64,000 nucleotides of DNA, taken from NCBI RefSeq assembly GCF_014297365.1, contig NZ_JACOQD010000001.1:496001-560000 (forward strand), written 5' to 3'. Numbering within the stretch: the stretch's first letter is position 1; each line of letters opens with the position of its first letter. The notes beneath the pieces are model-generated. The model searched no databases, had not been told where the DNA came from, and saw only the letters and a list, made by a program, of their open reading frames with translations. Both the position numbers and the translations under genes were made by a program. Below, piece after piece: positions 1-4,387 of the stretch. This DNA comes from Winogradskyella echinorum. Lineage in GTDB: Bacteria > Bacteroidota > Bacteroidia > Flavobacteriales > Flavobacteriaceae.

Positions 1-741
1 GATATGAGAACCACATCAGGAACTGATGATTTTATTGAAGGTAGAAGTAGTACAGTAAACTATAAGCTAAAATTATCGCTTACCAATTCTGAAATCTATA
101 CTACAAGTTTTTATTTTAATTCTAATGCTAGTTTAGGCTTAGATCCTGGTTATGATGCAGCAACTTTTGATGGATTTGGTGATAGTTATAAGCTATATTC
201 TCATTTAGTTGAAAACAATGAAGGAAGAAACATGACAATTCAGGCACTTGGAGAAGATGATATTAATAATGTTATTATTCCATTGGGAGTTAACTCTAAC
301 CAAGGTGAACAAATAACTTTTAGTATTAGTGAAACCTCTTTGCCTAGTACTATTAATGTTTATTTAGAAGATAATGTTAACAATACAACAACCTTACTAA
401 ACTCGAGTGACTATACCTTAACATTAAACCAAAATACAAGTGGCACTGGTCGTTTTTACTTACGTATAACAAATGGATTGTTATCAAACACTCTCAACAC
501 ATTAGATCATCTGAATATTTACAACAATCAAGAAAATAAGACTGTTGTGATTGAAGGTCAATTATCTGAGAATACTATTACAAAAATATACGATCTACAA
601 GGTAGAGTTGTAAACATTTCAACTTTATATACAACAGACACAACTCAATCTATAGATGTGAGTAATTTAAATACTGGCGTTTATGTTGTTCAACTTTCAA
701 ATAAATCACAACTGAAAACTCAAAAAATTATTATGAAATAA
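1..741 (+). CDS. Secreted protein with C-terminal type IX secretion sorting domain (5' end outside window)
   Basis: The reading frame is open at the left window edge, so this is the last 247 codons or so of a larger secreted protein. The final 70 residues have the pattern of a Por/T9SS type A sorting domain: a KIYDLQGRVV strand, a DVSNLNTGVYVVQL segment and a basic KTQKIIMK end. In this family the domain directs export across the outer membrane by the type IX system and is then removed. The part upstream of it is Asn/Thr-rich and beta-strand-like, as in adhesins or surface proteins. No catalytic motif is visible, so the function of the main body cannot be given. An internal Met at position 4 is not a credible start. 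Confidence 0.85.
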   Translation, partial: DMRTTSGTDDFIEGRSSTVNYKLKLSLTNSEIYTTSFYFNSNASLGLDPGYDAATFDGFGDSYKLYSHLVENNEGRNMTIQALGEDDINNVIIPLGVNSNQGEQITFSISETSLPSTINVYLEDNVNNTTTLLNSSDYTLTLNQNTSGTGRFYLRITNGLLSNTLNTLDHLNIYNNQENKTVVIEGQLSENTITKIYDLQGRVVNISTLYTTDTTQSIDVSNLNTGVYVVQLSNKSQLKTQKIIMK

Positions 742-1322: not shown

Positions 1323-1484
1323 ATGAAGAAAGAAAACAACTTAGATAAAATCACTCGTAAAGAAGCCATAAAAAAAATGGGGAAATACGCTGCATTAACT
1401 GCTGTAGGAACATTCGTGATTTTAAATCCGCTTAAAGCACAATCGTCATCACCACCAGATCCAGGAGGAGACCCATTCGATTAA
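1323..1484 (+). CDS. 53-residue leader-like peptide, candidate substrate of the adjacent kinase
   Basis: The open frame begins ATG AAG AAA GAA and encodes 53 residues. It has a basic N-terminus (TRKEAIKKMGKY, from about residue 11), a hydrophobic stretch at about residues 24-36, then LNPLKAQ and a 13-residue tail SSSPPDPGGDPFD with three serines, several prolines and acidic residues. The layout suggests an export or leader segment followed by a short mature peptide, with a possible signal-peptidase-like site after KAQ. It lies 15 bp before the HPr-kinase-like gene and in the same frame, separated by one TAA. I infer that it is the precursor modified by the two downstream proteins. A plain small membrane peptide is the alternative. 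There is no direct evidence of processing. Confidence 0.6.
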   Translation: MKKENNLDKITRKEAIKKMGKYAALTAVGTFVILNPLKAQSSSPPDPGGDPFD

Positions 1485-1499
1485 TTCTTAAATTTTATT

Positions 1500-2630
1500 T
1501 TGAACAATAGCTTAGCACCAACATATGAAAGACAGATTGGTGAGCATTGGGTATTATGGTACTCAAAGTCTAATAGTTATAGTGTCGTTGAGTCCTCATT
1601 CAAAAATTATTTAGACTCTTACTTAAAAGCCGAAACTATCGGTGACTTTAAAAGAGATTGTAATATAGATTCTTTAGAAGTTGAAGCGATAGCATCAACA
1701 ATTAATAATTATCTTAAAGACTGCAATATTTCTATTGCCCCATCAATAGATGAACATGTATCTATCGATACTTCTTATCGTAATATTATAAAGCAATATT
1801 TTATAAAAGGTAAATCTATTAATATTTATTTTTGTTCAGAAAAAGTTCTAAAAACAATACATCCTGCCATAGCACATCTGGAGATTGATACAAGTAATTC
1901 TGCTGAAACAATTTTTGATATTTACCTCAAAGATGAGCAATTATATTTATTTAAAGATCAACAATTAATAACCAAAGCCGCAAAAAAAGATTATCATCTT
2001 ATACAGGGTAAATTTATAATGCAATTACTTTGTAATATTCATAATAATAGAGAAGGTAATTGGATTAGTACTTTTCATGGTTCTACAATAACAGATGGTA
2101 AATCTTCAATACTTTTTATTGGTAAATCTGGCAAAGGAAAAAGTACTTTGTGCGCGTTGTTAGCGGCTAATGGATATAATCTTCTTGCCGATGATGTTTC
2201 GCCAATGCTTTCGAAAAACAAATGCATTTATCATAACCCTTCAGCAATATCAATAAAAGAGGGTGCTTTTAATTTACTACAACCACTAGTTGATAATTTT
2301 AATGCATTGCCTAATATTCAATTTAACAAAGCAAAAGGTCTAATAAAGTACTTACCATGTAAAAACCCGAAAAAAGATTATTACCCTAGTAATACGGTTG
2401 TTATGGTAAATTATAAAAGCGAATCGGAAACTATTTTAGAGGATATATCTGTTAAAACTATGTTAGAAACATTAATTCCGGAATCGTGGCTATCACCAAA
2501 CCCTTTGCATGCTCGGCAATTTTTAGATTGGTTAGAAACACTGAATCTCTATAAATTAACCTATAGCGATACTGATAAAGTGACCTTAAAAATTTCGGAA
2601 TTATTCCAAGAACTTAATAAAAACTTATAA
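1500..2630 (+). CDS. HPr kinase-like P-loop protein (peptide or protein serine kinase candidate)
   Basis: 376 residues from a TTG start; no in-frame ATG lies near the N-terminus. The C-terminal half carries a Walker A loop GKSGKGKST (residues 208-216) and an ADDV motif (aspartates 231-232), which together mark the HprK/serine-kinase-like fold. A conserved-looking histidine-containing segment STFHGSTI precedes the loop. The N-terminal third (about residues 15-75) has strands followed by a helical stretch that could be a PqqD-like peptide-binding domain, but this is only a pattern impression. Related kinases in lasso-peptide clusters phosphorylate a precursor serine. Here the serine-bearing small peptide is immediately upstream. 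HPr itself is an unlikely substrate because no PTS genes are nearby. Confidence 0.7.
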   Translation: MNNSLAPTYERQIGEHWVLWYSKSNSYSVVESSFKNYLDSYLKAETIGDFKRDCNIDSLEVEAIASTINNYLKDCNISIAPSIDEHVSIDTSYRNIIKQYFIKGKSINIYFCSEKVLKTIHPAIAHLEIDTSNSAETIFDIYLKDEQLYLFKDQQLITKAAKKDYHLIQGKFIMQLLCNIHNNREGNWISTFHGSTITDGKSSILFIGKSGKGKSTLCALLAANGYNLLADDVSPMLSKNKCIYHNPSAISIKEGAFNLLQPLVDNFNALPNIQFNKAKGLIKYLPCKNPKKDYYPSNTVVMVNYKSESETILEDISVKTMLETLIPESWLSPNPLHARQFLDWLETLNLYKLTYSDTDKVTLKISELFQELNKNL

Positions 2631-2662
2631 TAATACTATATTAGTATTTTAGACAACTATCA

Positions 2663-3724
2663 ATGGGTAATCTTGCTATTACATATCAACATATTGCAGA
2701 TATCCTAAGTTTTAATACTCCAACCGAACAATTAGAGCAGACACTTAGTAGACAATCTTTTAATTGGGATGCCATTGTTATTGAAGGTAGCAAACATTTA
2801 ATTTTACCGGCTATTTATTGTAGGTTAAAGGCCAAACAACTGTTGCATTTACTACCTAAAGAGTTAAATAACTATTTAGAAGAAATTACTTCTATCAACA
2901 GAAACAGAAATATAGCCATATTACAACAAGTACATTCCATTTCTCAATTGTTTAATCAACATAGTATTAATCATGTATTTTTAAAAGGCTCCGCTTTATT
3001 GGTTTTTGGTTGTTTTAATGATAATGCAGAACGTATGATAGGTGATATAGATGTTTTAGTTACTACAAACGATCTAGAAAAAGCGTACAATTTATTAACA
3101 AAAAATCATTATGTACCAATAGATCAAACCATAGGACATCAATATTTTGAGCATAAGCACCTTCCAAGATTGAAAACTAAACATGAAATATGCGCAGTAG
3201 AAGTGCATGAAAAACTATTTACGTCTTTCACCTATAATGAACTTAAAAGTAATAATCTTTTAAACAAAAAAACAAACTTAAACTACATAGACATACCTTC
3301 TCAAAAACATCTATTAATGCATAACATTCTCAATTATCAAATCAATGATAAAGGGGCTTTATTTAATAGTATAAATTTTCGTTCAGCTTATGACACCTTA
3401 TGTTTATTGCGGAATTATGTTAATGAAGATGTTCCATGGTATTCCACTAAAATCTTCAGTCGTTATTTTAACAATCTAAGCCTTTTTTTTAAAGATGACC
3501 AAATAACCAATAAGGGCAACAAAAACATTTTCACATCTTTCTATTTGTTTAAATTAAAGCATCTTAGATTTTATAAATTTTGGAATAAAATATTAGTAAT
3601 TAGTAATTTTACACCGATTTTTATAAAACGTTTCTACTATTTTATATTTAACAATTCTTATAGAAAGTCGATAATAAAGGACAGAAAGAGAGTTTCCAGC
3701 CTTTTTAAGTCCATTTTTAAGTGA
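2663..3724 (+). CDS. Nucleotidyltransferase-fold protein (NTP_transf_5 type)
   Basis: 353 residues. The segment FLKGSALL (about 106-113) followed by RMIGDIDVLV (about 124-133) matches the KG...GDIDxLV pattern of uncharacterised nucleotidyltransferases, with D128 and D130 as likely metal ligands. The C-terminal third is basic and aromatic (many K, F and Y) with no recognisable domain. The gene follows the kinase gene by 32 bp, in a gap holding a small AATACTA/TAGTATT hairpin, and the two are probably co-transcribed. Proteins of this fold occur beside HprK-like kinases in peptide-tailoring clusters, where they may act on a phosphorylated peptide. That role is inferred here. The reaction and donor are unknown. 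Confidence 0.7.
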   Translation: MGNLAITYQHIADILSFNTPTEQLEQTLSRQSFNWDAIVIEGSKHLILPAIYCRLKAKQLLHLLPKELNNYLEEITSINRNRNIAILQQVHSISQLFNQHSINHVFLKGSALLVFGCFNDNAERMIGDIDVLVTTNDLEKAYNLLTKNHYVPIDQTIGHQYFEHKHLPRLKTKHEICAVEVHEKLFTSFTYNELKSNNLLNKKTNLNYIDIPSQKHLLMHNILNYQINDKGALFNSINFRSAYDTLCLLRNYVNEDVPWYSTKIFSRYFNNLSLFFKDDQITNKGNKNIFTSFYLFKLKHLRFYKFWNKILVISNFTPIFIKRFYYFIFNNSYRKSIIKDRKRVSSLFKSIFK

Positions 3725-3817: not shown

Positions 3818-4387
3818 ATGAAAAAATTAGTTTTAATATTAACATTAGTAGCATTTAGCTTATCATCATATGCTCAAAGAAATAATAAGGATTGGTTATT
3901 AAGTATTGGTTTAAACTCAGTTAATAGTTTAGGATCTAGATCACCAATTTTCCATCCAGAAAGATGGGTGAACCAGTTCCCTCTTTCAGCAGCAGTAGAA
4001 TTTAACTGGAGTGATGATTTTGCTGTAGAACAATCTTTAACATTTAATGGCTTTACTGAAGATGATGAAATTGATGGTGCTGATTTAAAGAAAGATTATA
4101 ACTATATATCGTTAGACACACATGTTAAATACTACTTTGGAAAATATATATTTTCTAGACGTGTAGATTGGATTGATTTATACGTTAACGGTGGGTTAGG
4201 ATTCTTTCATATAGATGAAACTAATATTTCTGCAAATCTAGGTGGTGGAGTTCTTTTTTGGCTAAACAAAACTAGAACTTTTGGTTTAAGAACTCAAGTC
4301 ATCGGTAAATTTGCTTTTAATCATAAGGATAGTGGCTTAGACAACAACCATTATCAATACCATTTACAAGCAGTATTTAAATTATAG
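3818..4387 (+). CDS. Small outer-membrane beta-barrel protein
   Basis: 189 residues with a clear signal peptide (MKKLVLILTLVAFSLSSYAQ, cleavage after AQ). The mature part alternates polar and hydrophobic residues and has typical strand segments such as AAVEFNWSDDFAVEQSLTF, LYVNGGLGFFHI and LGGGVLFWL. It ends with aromatic/hydrophobic FKL, the usual last strand of an outer-membrane barrel. The size suggests an eight-strand OmpW/OmpA-like barrel. It has its own promoter and a shared terminator, so it is a single-gene unit. No ligand or enzymatic role can be assigned. Confidence 0.75.
   Translation: MKKLVLILTLVAFSLSSYAQRNNKDWLLSIGLNSVNSLGSRSPIFHPERWVNQFPLSAAVEFNWSDDFAVEQSLTFNGFTEDDEIDGADLKKDYNYISLDTHVKYYFGKYIFSRRVDWIDLYVNGGLGFFHIDETNISANLGGGVLFWLNKTRTFGLRTQVIGKFAFNHKDSGLDNNHYQYHLQAVFKL

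Follow-up and report, generated by a model that had tools for sequence, protein, structure and literature searches.

A conserved peptide, kinase and nucleotidyltransferase cassette paired with a class of type IX secretion cargo in Winogradskyella and its family

A 64,000-nucleotide stretch of the Winogradskyella echinorum genome (contig NZ_JACOQD010000001.1, positions 496,001 to 560,000; the window) carries, all on its forward strand, a gene for a 53-residue peptide (1323-1484), a gene for an HprK-like kinase (1500-2630) and a gene for an NTP_transf_5 protein (2663-3724), and upstream of these the 3′ end of a gene for a cargo protein of the type IX secretion system (T9SS). We think it reasonably probable that the kinase and the third enzyme (NT) act on the peptide as their substrate, and that the peptide works with the class of T9SS cargo to which the upstream protein belongs. 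The evidence consists of gene conservation, selection, catalytic residues, folds, the pairing of peptide with cargo genes and the co-occurrence of peptide and kinase. The system extends beyond 1323-3724 and includes the cargo gene ending at 741. An earlier note, written from the sequence alone, had taken the three frames for a possible undescribed system in which the kinase phosphorylates serines of the peptide and the third protein acts on the product; its interpretation as a whole is partly supported.

The peptide and the two enzymes

The peptide frame is open and conserved. It consists of a leader of 40 residues (1323-1442), which in alignments resembles a signal peptide, with a TRKEA motif, a conserved hydrophobic stretch and an NPLKAQ end, followed by the core SSSPPDPGGDPFD and the stop codon (1443-1484); the predicted acceptor, Ser43, is encoded at 1449-1451. 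In all 30 loci from 29 genomes of the genus, the peptide lies upstream of the kinase with a leader resembling ITRKEAIKKMGKYAALTAVGTFVILNPLKAQ, and most kinase loci in other genera of the family also have it upstream. For 15 orthologues, all of 53 residues, the leader had a ratio of nonsynonymous to synonymous polymorphism (pN/pS) of 0.105 and the core one of 0.354, in a comparison made without gaps, where rows with compensating insertions and deletions push the core value up. Since the placement is constant and selection is purifying, the frame is not a chance one, and we conclude that the precursor-like peptide is a real gene under purifying selection. Two of the refuting outcomes named in the earlier note, a frame that is not conserved upstream of kinase homologues and codons without purifying selection, thus did not occur. 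Searches of the family profile libraries with the peptide gave no convincing match. An octamer, TATTTTTG, at 1292-1299, 23 bp before the peptide start, matches the consensus of the Bacteroidota −7 element, TAnnTTTG.

Alignment of 37 peptides gave the leader consensus ITRKEAIKKMGKYAALTAxGTFxILNPxKAQ, after which the core is about 10-13 residues long in most peptides and up to about 55 in a few. The third core position, that of Ser43, is Ser in 70 of 74 distinct peptide frames and Thr in one, at constant spacing from the leader end; the remaining three are a Tyr in genome G341 (L135:6650-6745) and frames that stop before the position in G353 (the shortened peptide of L137) and in G210. A previous count of 53 peptides had given 52 Ser and one Thr, the three exceptions being added by the wider recount. 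The absence of a kinase match in G341 and G353 fits an acceptor that is no longer needed, and hints at such a loss.

The kinase gene starts with TTG 15 bp after the peptide stop, so that the order and spacing given in the earlier note are confirmed. Its product, which contains the motifs GKSGKGKST and ADD, is related to HprK: the best family is HprK_rel_A (TIGR04352; E 3.2e-13), but the score of 49.4 bits is under the cut-off of 200 and the N-terminal part is unmatched. All 42 kinase relatives match this family at E values up to 1, and the nearest solved sequence is the HPr kinase 1ko7 (E 1e-5). Each of 42 sequences out of 42 has H193, K214, D231 and D232, the His-Lys-Asp-Asp set of peptide-tailoring HprK kinases, which supports the kinase of the earlier note. 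In an AlphaFold2 model (mean predicted local distance difference test score, pLDDT, 94.6), the catalytic part (residues 80-376; 1737-2630) takes up the HprK/PEPCK fold, with matches to PEPCK 1ayl (Z 14.0, root-mean-square deviation [rmsd] 5.3, 285 residues aligned) and HPr kinase 1ko7 (Z 12.6, rmsd 2.8, 131 aligned).

The structure search with the whole kinase was filled by PEPCK and HprK matches to residues 80-376 and says nothing on residues 1-79 (1500-1736). In the model these residues form a β-β-β-α-α-α domain in which W20, S24, N25 and Y27 are nearly invariant. This is the topology of PqqD and of RiPP recognition element (RRE) domains, RiPP denoting a ribosomally synthesized and post-translationally modified peptide, and the domain is a candidate leader binder. 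A PqqD-like N-terminus had been suggested by the earlier note; the topology agrees with it, and the evidence from sequence is slight. Aligned to PqqD with hhalign, the matching elements were paired at a probability of 4.8%, with a score of 16.7 compared with at most 12.8 in 150 column shuffles, and PF05402 was matched by one of the 42 kinases (E 0.047). The TIGR04352 family is associated with a PqqD-family protein. In G359, G376 and G410 (L182, L184 and L186), genomes of some other Bacteroidota, HprK-like kinase matches have genes of the PqqD family about 1 kb away or less, and these loci may be further RiPP clusters of a kinase type.

In the genus loci L001-L029 the kinase frame has TTG (28 loci) or GTG (one) as its first candidate start codon, an unusual weak start that is conserved, and in other genera ATG, TTG and GTG are mixed; in L006 and L023 the ten codons before it contain no in-frame stop, and translation may begin earlier there. 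A weak start behind the peptide gene would mean that in this genus less enzyme than substrate is made.

The third protein matches NTP_transf_5 (PF14907, E 8.8e-31), with its GDIDVLV motif in a nucleotidyltransferase core at about residues 79-285. D128, D130 and E180, the GD-x-D pair and a third acidic residue, are invariant in 22 of 22 NT sequences. By sequence, a search of the PDB found nothing useful. The model (pLDDT 91.6) matched LnuA 4fo1 (Z 12.4, rmsd 3.1, 144 aligned), ANT(2'')-Ia (Z 11.7) and MenT1 (Z 11.6), and at a lower level FKRP, a sugar-phosphate transferase (Z 8.8, rmsd 4.1, 139 aligned); it thus has the predicted features of a minimal nucleotidyltransferase fold, and this part of the earlier assignment holds. 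An NT cluster member was present in 29 of 33 regions with a clear kinase. At L085 (G114:C14), in a genome with two peptides on other contigs, the place of NTP_transf_5 behind the kinase is taken by another protein, of 295 residues, beginning MVLLIMAAGSGSRYGK and sugar-nucleotidyltransferase-like by eye.

Co-occurrence and pairing with a T9SS cargo class

Kinase and peptide are found in the same genomes. Of 60 genomes searched for the kinase, the source genome (G000) has it, as do 28 of the 36 other members of the genus, and the 23 that belong to other families of the order gave no match; the same 28 genomes have the peptide, and the other 8 have neither. Across 299 genomes of the family, strong matches were counted in 29 for the kinase (E < 1e-50) and in 32 for the peptide (E < 1e-10), with 28 having both and 33 either, a co-occurrence (Fisher test, 5.5e-34) whose significance is overstated because such values ignore shared ancestry. 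The kinase search had matched 44 genomes at E ≤ 0.001, those beyond the 29 matching a short P-loop stretch only and being left uncounted, as were weak peptide matches in G064 and G240 (E about 0.01). In the sole genome with a kinase only (G107) the kinase lies at base 24 of its contig, and the four with a peptide only (G195, G333, G341 and G353) are 82-92% complete. Across 345 genomes of the phylum, strong kinase and strong peptide coincided in the same five, all of the family of W. echinorum; the kinase search there matched 163 genomes, five beyond 1e-50, and the others, among the matches listed, cover part of residues 155-321. A search of 395 genomes of the class located the peptide in three, all likewise of this family. 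A contig scan gave, among the matches listed, one weak locus from Acidobacteria, which was set aside. The two genes co-occur even where they are unlinked: G440 and G653 each have six peptides, adjoining T9SS proteins at several places, and a single kinase and NT elsewhere.

The cargo gene of the window (1-741, plus strand) encodes a product of 1474 residues whose start lies upstream of the window (L061:7317-11738). Its C-terminal domain (CTD, about 517-738) matches the T9SS type A model TIGR04183 (E 2.9e-9), and the two proteins upstream score 36.8 and 42.4 bits, both above the cut-off of 23, the former being the cargo that ends at 741. A gap of 581 bp between this gene and the peptide suggests that the peptide has its own transcription here. 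Comparison of 34 regions, each at most 20 kb long, shows one recurrent arrangement in different genera (T9SS protein, peptide, kinase, NTP_transf_5) within changing outer surroundings; two cargo and peptide units precede one kinase and NT in L076, L084 and L091, and the gene order differs in L086. Taking as the upstream gene the nearest of 150 residues or more on the same strand, we found a T9SS-CTD gene directly upstream of the peptide in 48 of 52 testable cases, these being 56 peptide frames less one duplicate (L139, identical to L075) and three at contig ends. The distance was within 30 bp in 21 of 46 pairs counted directly. TIGR04183 was matched, at E up to 0.01, by 46 of 46 distinct upstream products (46 of 49 scanned, the other three being known exceptions). 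Because G000 has only 65 CTD proteins in all, chance adjacency to the peptide is expected at a few per cent.

The cargo proteins share more than a CTD. A domain of about 430 residues before it, which we call A5 and which in the window ends at about 468 (match G000:C1:495161-496468), was defined by a profile from 21 peptide-adjacent proteins and is present in 47 of 48 cargo proteins upstream of peptides, the exception being a protein of 305 residues in L091, and in 24 of 24 from loci outside the training set. Pfam gave no convincing match to A5, the best being 5.7e-4 in one of the 21 members. At E ≤ 1e-30, all 51 of the 51 genomes that have kinase and peptide also have A5, compared with two of 35 without them (G009 and G015); this cut-off was applied also to a search run at 1e-10, so that G186 (1e-29) and G007 (1e-21) are scored negative. 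In G440, which lies outside the training set, six of the eight A5 matches directly precede the six peptides.

A YPNP-like motif is usual at the start of the CTD in T9SS type A cargo. No PNP occurred in the last 95 residues of any of 46 partner proteins (L072:10680 and L176:5918 were dropped from the 48, another peptide lying between), nor in seven further A5 proteins of G000. Of 37 other CTDs in G000, 36 had the motif, these controls being the non-A5 proteins among the matches listed of the 65, with the weakest matches not included. The type C model NF033708 was matched by 35 of 49 scanned C-termini and TIGR04183 by more, and the partner CTD may thus lie between the known T9SS types. The partners share the TIGR04183 CTD with type A cargo and differ from it by the missing PNP and by their own pre-CTD domain; it is in these two sequence features, not as a proven new sorting type, that they are a class of their own. 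TIGR04183 does not separate the A5 class (G000:C1:490321-496741 and others).

Downstream of NT, a gene for a small outer-membrane β-barrel protein (3818-4387, plus strand; PF13505, 8.7e-7) has relatives in its blast cluster in 17 of 34 compared regions, not always immediately after the cassette, and is possibly a non-core member. A defence or phage reading of the locus was rejected (best PADLOC match 0.0095, no PHROGs match).

Known peptide kinases and a proposed pathway

The earlier note had compared the enzymes with the tailoring enzymes of lasso-peptide clusters and had reported no lasso cyclase, B protein or transporter, and none of these was found among ten neighbours (spanning about 12 kb on the upstream and 6 kb on the downstream side; NCBIfam, 1e-5), a negative that for cyclase and B protease covers these neighbours, the whole genome not having been searched for them. 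A lasso peptide was rejected on this ground. The likeness lies in the enzymes: paeninodin/ThcoK and pseudomycoidin PsmK/PsmN combine a kinase carrying the His-Lys-Asp-Asp set, described for lasso-tailoring kinases (PMC9266682), with a nucleotidyltransferase-like partner. According to that report, PsmK phosphorylates a Ser and PsmN, annotated as a nucleotidyltransferase, attaches one or two hexoses. The lasso systems differ in having a cyclase and a B protein and in an acceptor Ser that is C-terminal, whereas here it is near the core start.

A closer parallel is offered by the linear polyphosphorylated peptides (LPP) of Bacillota, published in May 2026, in which a linear precursor is encoded with an HprK-like kinase and a cluster NTP transferase and biological roles are stated to be unknown (PMC13381572). 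There LppK phosphorylates S3 of a core that starts with A-Q-S after signal-peptidase-like cleavage (PMC13381572), just as Ser43 is the predicted acceptor behind a similar site here, and 'AQS' is present in many of our peptides at the place matching the LPP core start. Together with PadeK/ThcoK and PsmK/PsmN, LppK provides a bench precedent for action on a precursor Ser (PMC9266682 and PMC13381572). The LPP clusters differ in having an SpI-like peptidase and an MsbA-like transporter, neither of which was found among the ten neighbours in L061 or by eye in the 34 regions, and a discrete RRE gene, for which the neighbour scan gave none, although a small divergent one could escape it; the kinase N-terminus may hold a fused RRE. 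The LPP leader, YxxPxVLxHQxIxFETxxS, is unrelated to the leader here, and LPP belong to Bacillota and are without the T9SS cargo partner. Identity with LPP was rejected because no SpI or transporter gene was found in these neighbours and regions and because the leader is different.

The chemistry therefore probably belongs to a known kind, an HprK-like kinase and an NTP transferase acting on a ribosomal peptide, and the new part is the link to T9SS. The earlier claim that the system is possibly undescribed has to be narrowed, kinase-modified linear peptides whose clusters include an NTP transferase being known in Bacillota (PMC13381572); the T9SS pairing was absent from the literature searched, in that full-text searches for T9SS with HprK, RiPP or related terms, seen partly from listings, found nothing naming it. 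The earlier note did not foresee that the cassette is no free-standing natural-product cluster: the peptide is paired with a T9SS cargo class and is unlinked from the enzymes in G440 and G653.

We infer each chemical step, the export route and the contact of peptide with cargo as follows. The cassette would be a RiPP-like peptide-modification pathway serving a class of T9SS surface proteins. Its leader would double as enzyme recognition tag and signal peptide, and the core, with its single fixed Ser, would begin just after a signal-peptidase-like site. The kinase, with the leader probably held by its β3-α3 N-domain, would phosphorylate Ser43 in the cytoplasm, and the NTP_transf_5 enzyme would extend the phosphate by a sugar, sugar-phosphate or nucleotide; both steps are proposed by analogy with LppK and PsmK/PsmN. 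The leader would then carry the peptide across the inner membrane via the cell's general export machinery. Cleavage would fall to the general signal peptidase in place of the special enzyme of LPP. The short product would act with the PNP-less cargo as a bound partner, a folding or docking factor, or an anchor.

As to the route, the leader may use Sec or Tat (twin-arginine translocation). Its pattern T-R-K-x-A-[IL]-x-K, in which the first Arg never varies, and a basic residue ahead of the cleavage site give it a Tat-like shape. A Tat signal peptide as such was rejected, because 53 peptides contained no RR (R-K in 49, R-N in three, R-Q in one). TatC is present in 55 of 55 genomes, whether or not they have the system, and is hence uninformative.

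Several observations weigh against this pathway. The PqqD similarity of the kinase N-domain is weak, and in the LPP work removal of lppN had no visible effect (PMC13381572). G210 has a kinase and yet its peptide frame stops before the Ser, and G195 (84% complete) and G333 (82%) have normal Ser-bearing peptides and no kinase match. Pairing with cargo is not one to one, for in G000 a single peptide is set against eight strong A5 matches, and no cargo gene lies directly upstream of the peptide in L130 and L134, both after folD (an identity confirmed for two of the exceptions), or in L127 and L075. The A5 match holds by construction in the source genomes of the profile, though not in G440, G653 or the negatives. 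Finally, G009 has 13 A5 matches (9 beyond 1e-30) and G015 two, with no kinase or peptide; either the system is dispensable for having such cargo or these assemblies miss it. As a separate observation, L127:1080-3003 (G182) holds five near-identical tandem copies of a frame of 95-119 residues (MPFCYIIYSPQ..., GIY-YIG-like by eye).

Competing explanations and what the pairing would mean

One alternative is that the product is a secreted phosphopeptide or phosphoglycopeptide, a natural product or signal, with the T9SS protein as the surface receptor for it or as its immunity or binding protein. Such a role would suit the enzyme pair, which is of the kind found in lasso and LPP clusters (PMC9266682 and PMC13381572), the short Pro- and Gly-rich cores and the adjoining peptide and cargo genes. 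We consider it unlikely, given that six paralogues of one genome have nearly the same core, unlike competing toxins, that the ten neighbours include no dedicated transporter or protease, and that the single peptide of G000 stands against its eight strong A5 matches.

It is also conceivable, if distinctly unlikely, that the enzymes modify the cargo, a lipid or a sugar, and that the peptide stays uncleaved in the inner membrane, where it helps these enzymes or the T9SS machinery. Conservation of the leader's hydrophobic stretch is stronger than we would expect of a plain signal peptide, and the NT model also matches FKRP, which acts on sugars. A helper of this sort does not account for the fixed Ser at fixed spacing or for the bench precedents in which this type of kinase acts on peptides, and the cargo has an N-terminal export signal of its own (by eye), so that a cytosolic kinase would meet it only briefly. 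That the whole is a linked block spreading as a unit, with peptide and cargo associated by shared inheritance only, would fit the patchy presence in the family (a strong kinase in 29 of 299 genomes) and is highly improbable in view of the cargo and peptide units apart from kinase and NT in G440 and G653 and of the rearranged L086.

We therefore favor the peptide as enzyme substrate and cargo partner. A further step, which we put forward tentatively and would not bet on at even odds, is that the ribosomal peptide, once phosphorylated and decorated in the cytoplasm, serves a separate branch of T9SS, the PNP-less one, as its dedicated cofactor or anchor, so that a RiPP-like pathway would be wired to protein secretion and not to a natural product. 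The enzyme pair known from LPP and lasso clusters has here a visible partner, a class of exported surface proteins gained and lost with it, and this makes its role testable by gene removals in culturable bacteria. The pairing also points to a subclass of T9SS cargo with its own pre-CTD domain and a CTD without PNP. If the proposal is true, a modified peptide would serve these bacteria as a secretion or surface factor, a job not described in the literature that our searches found.

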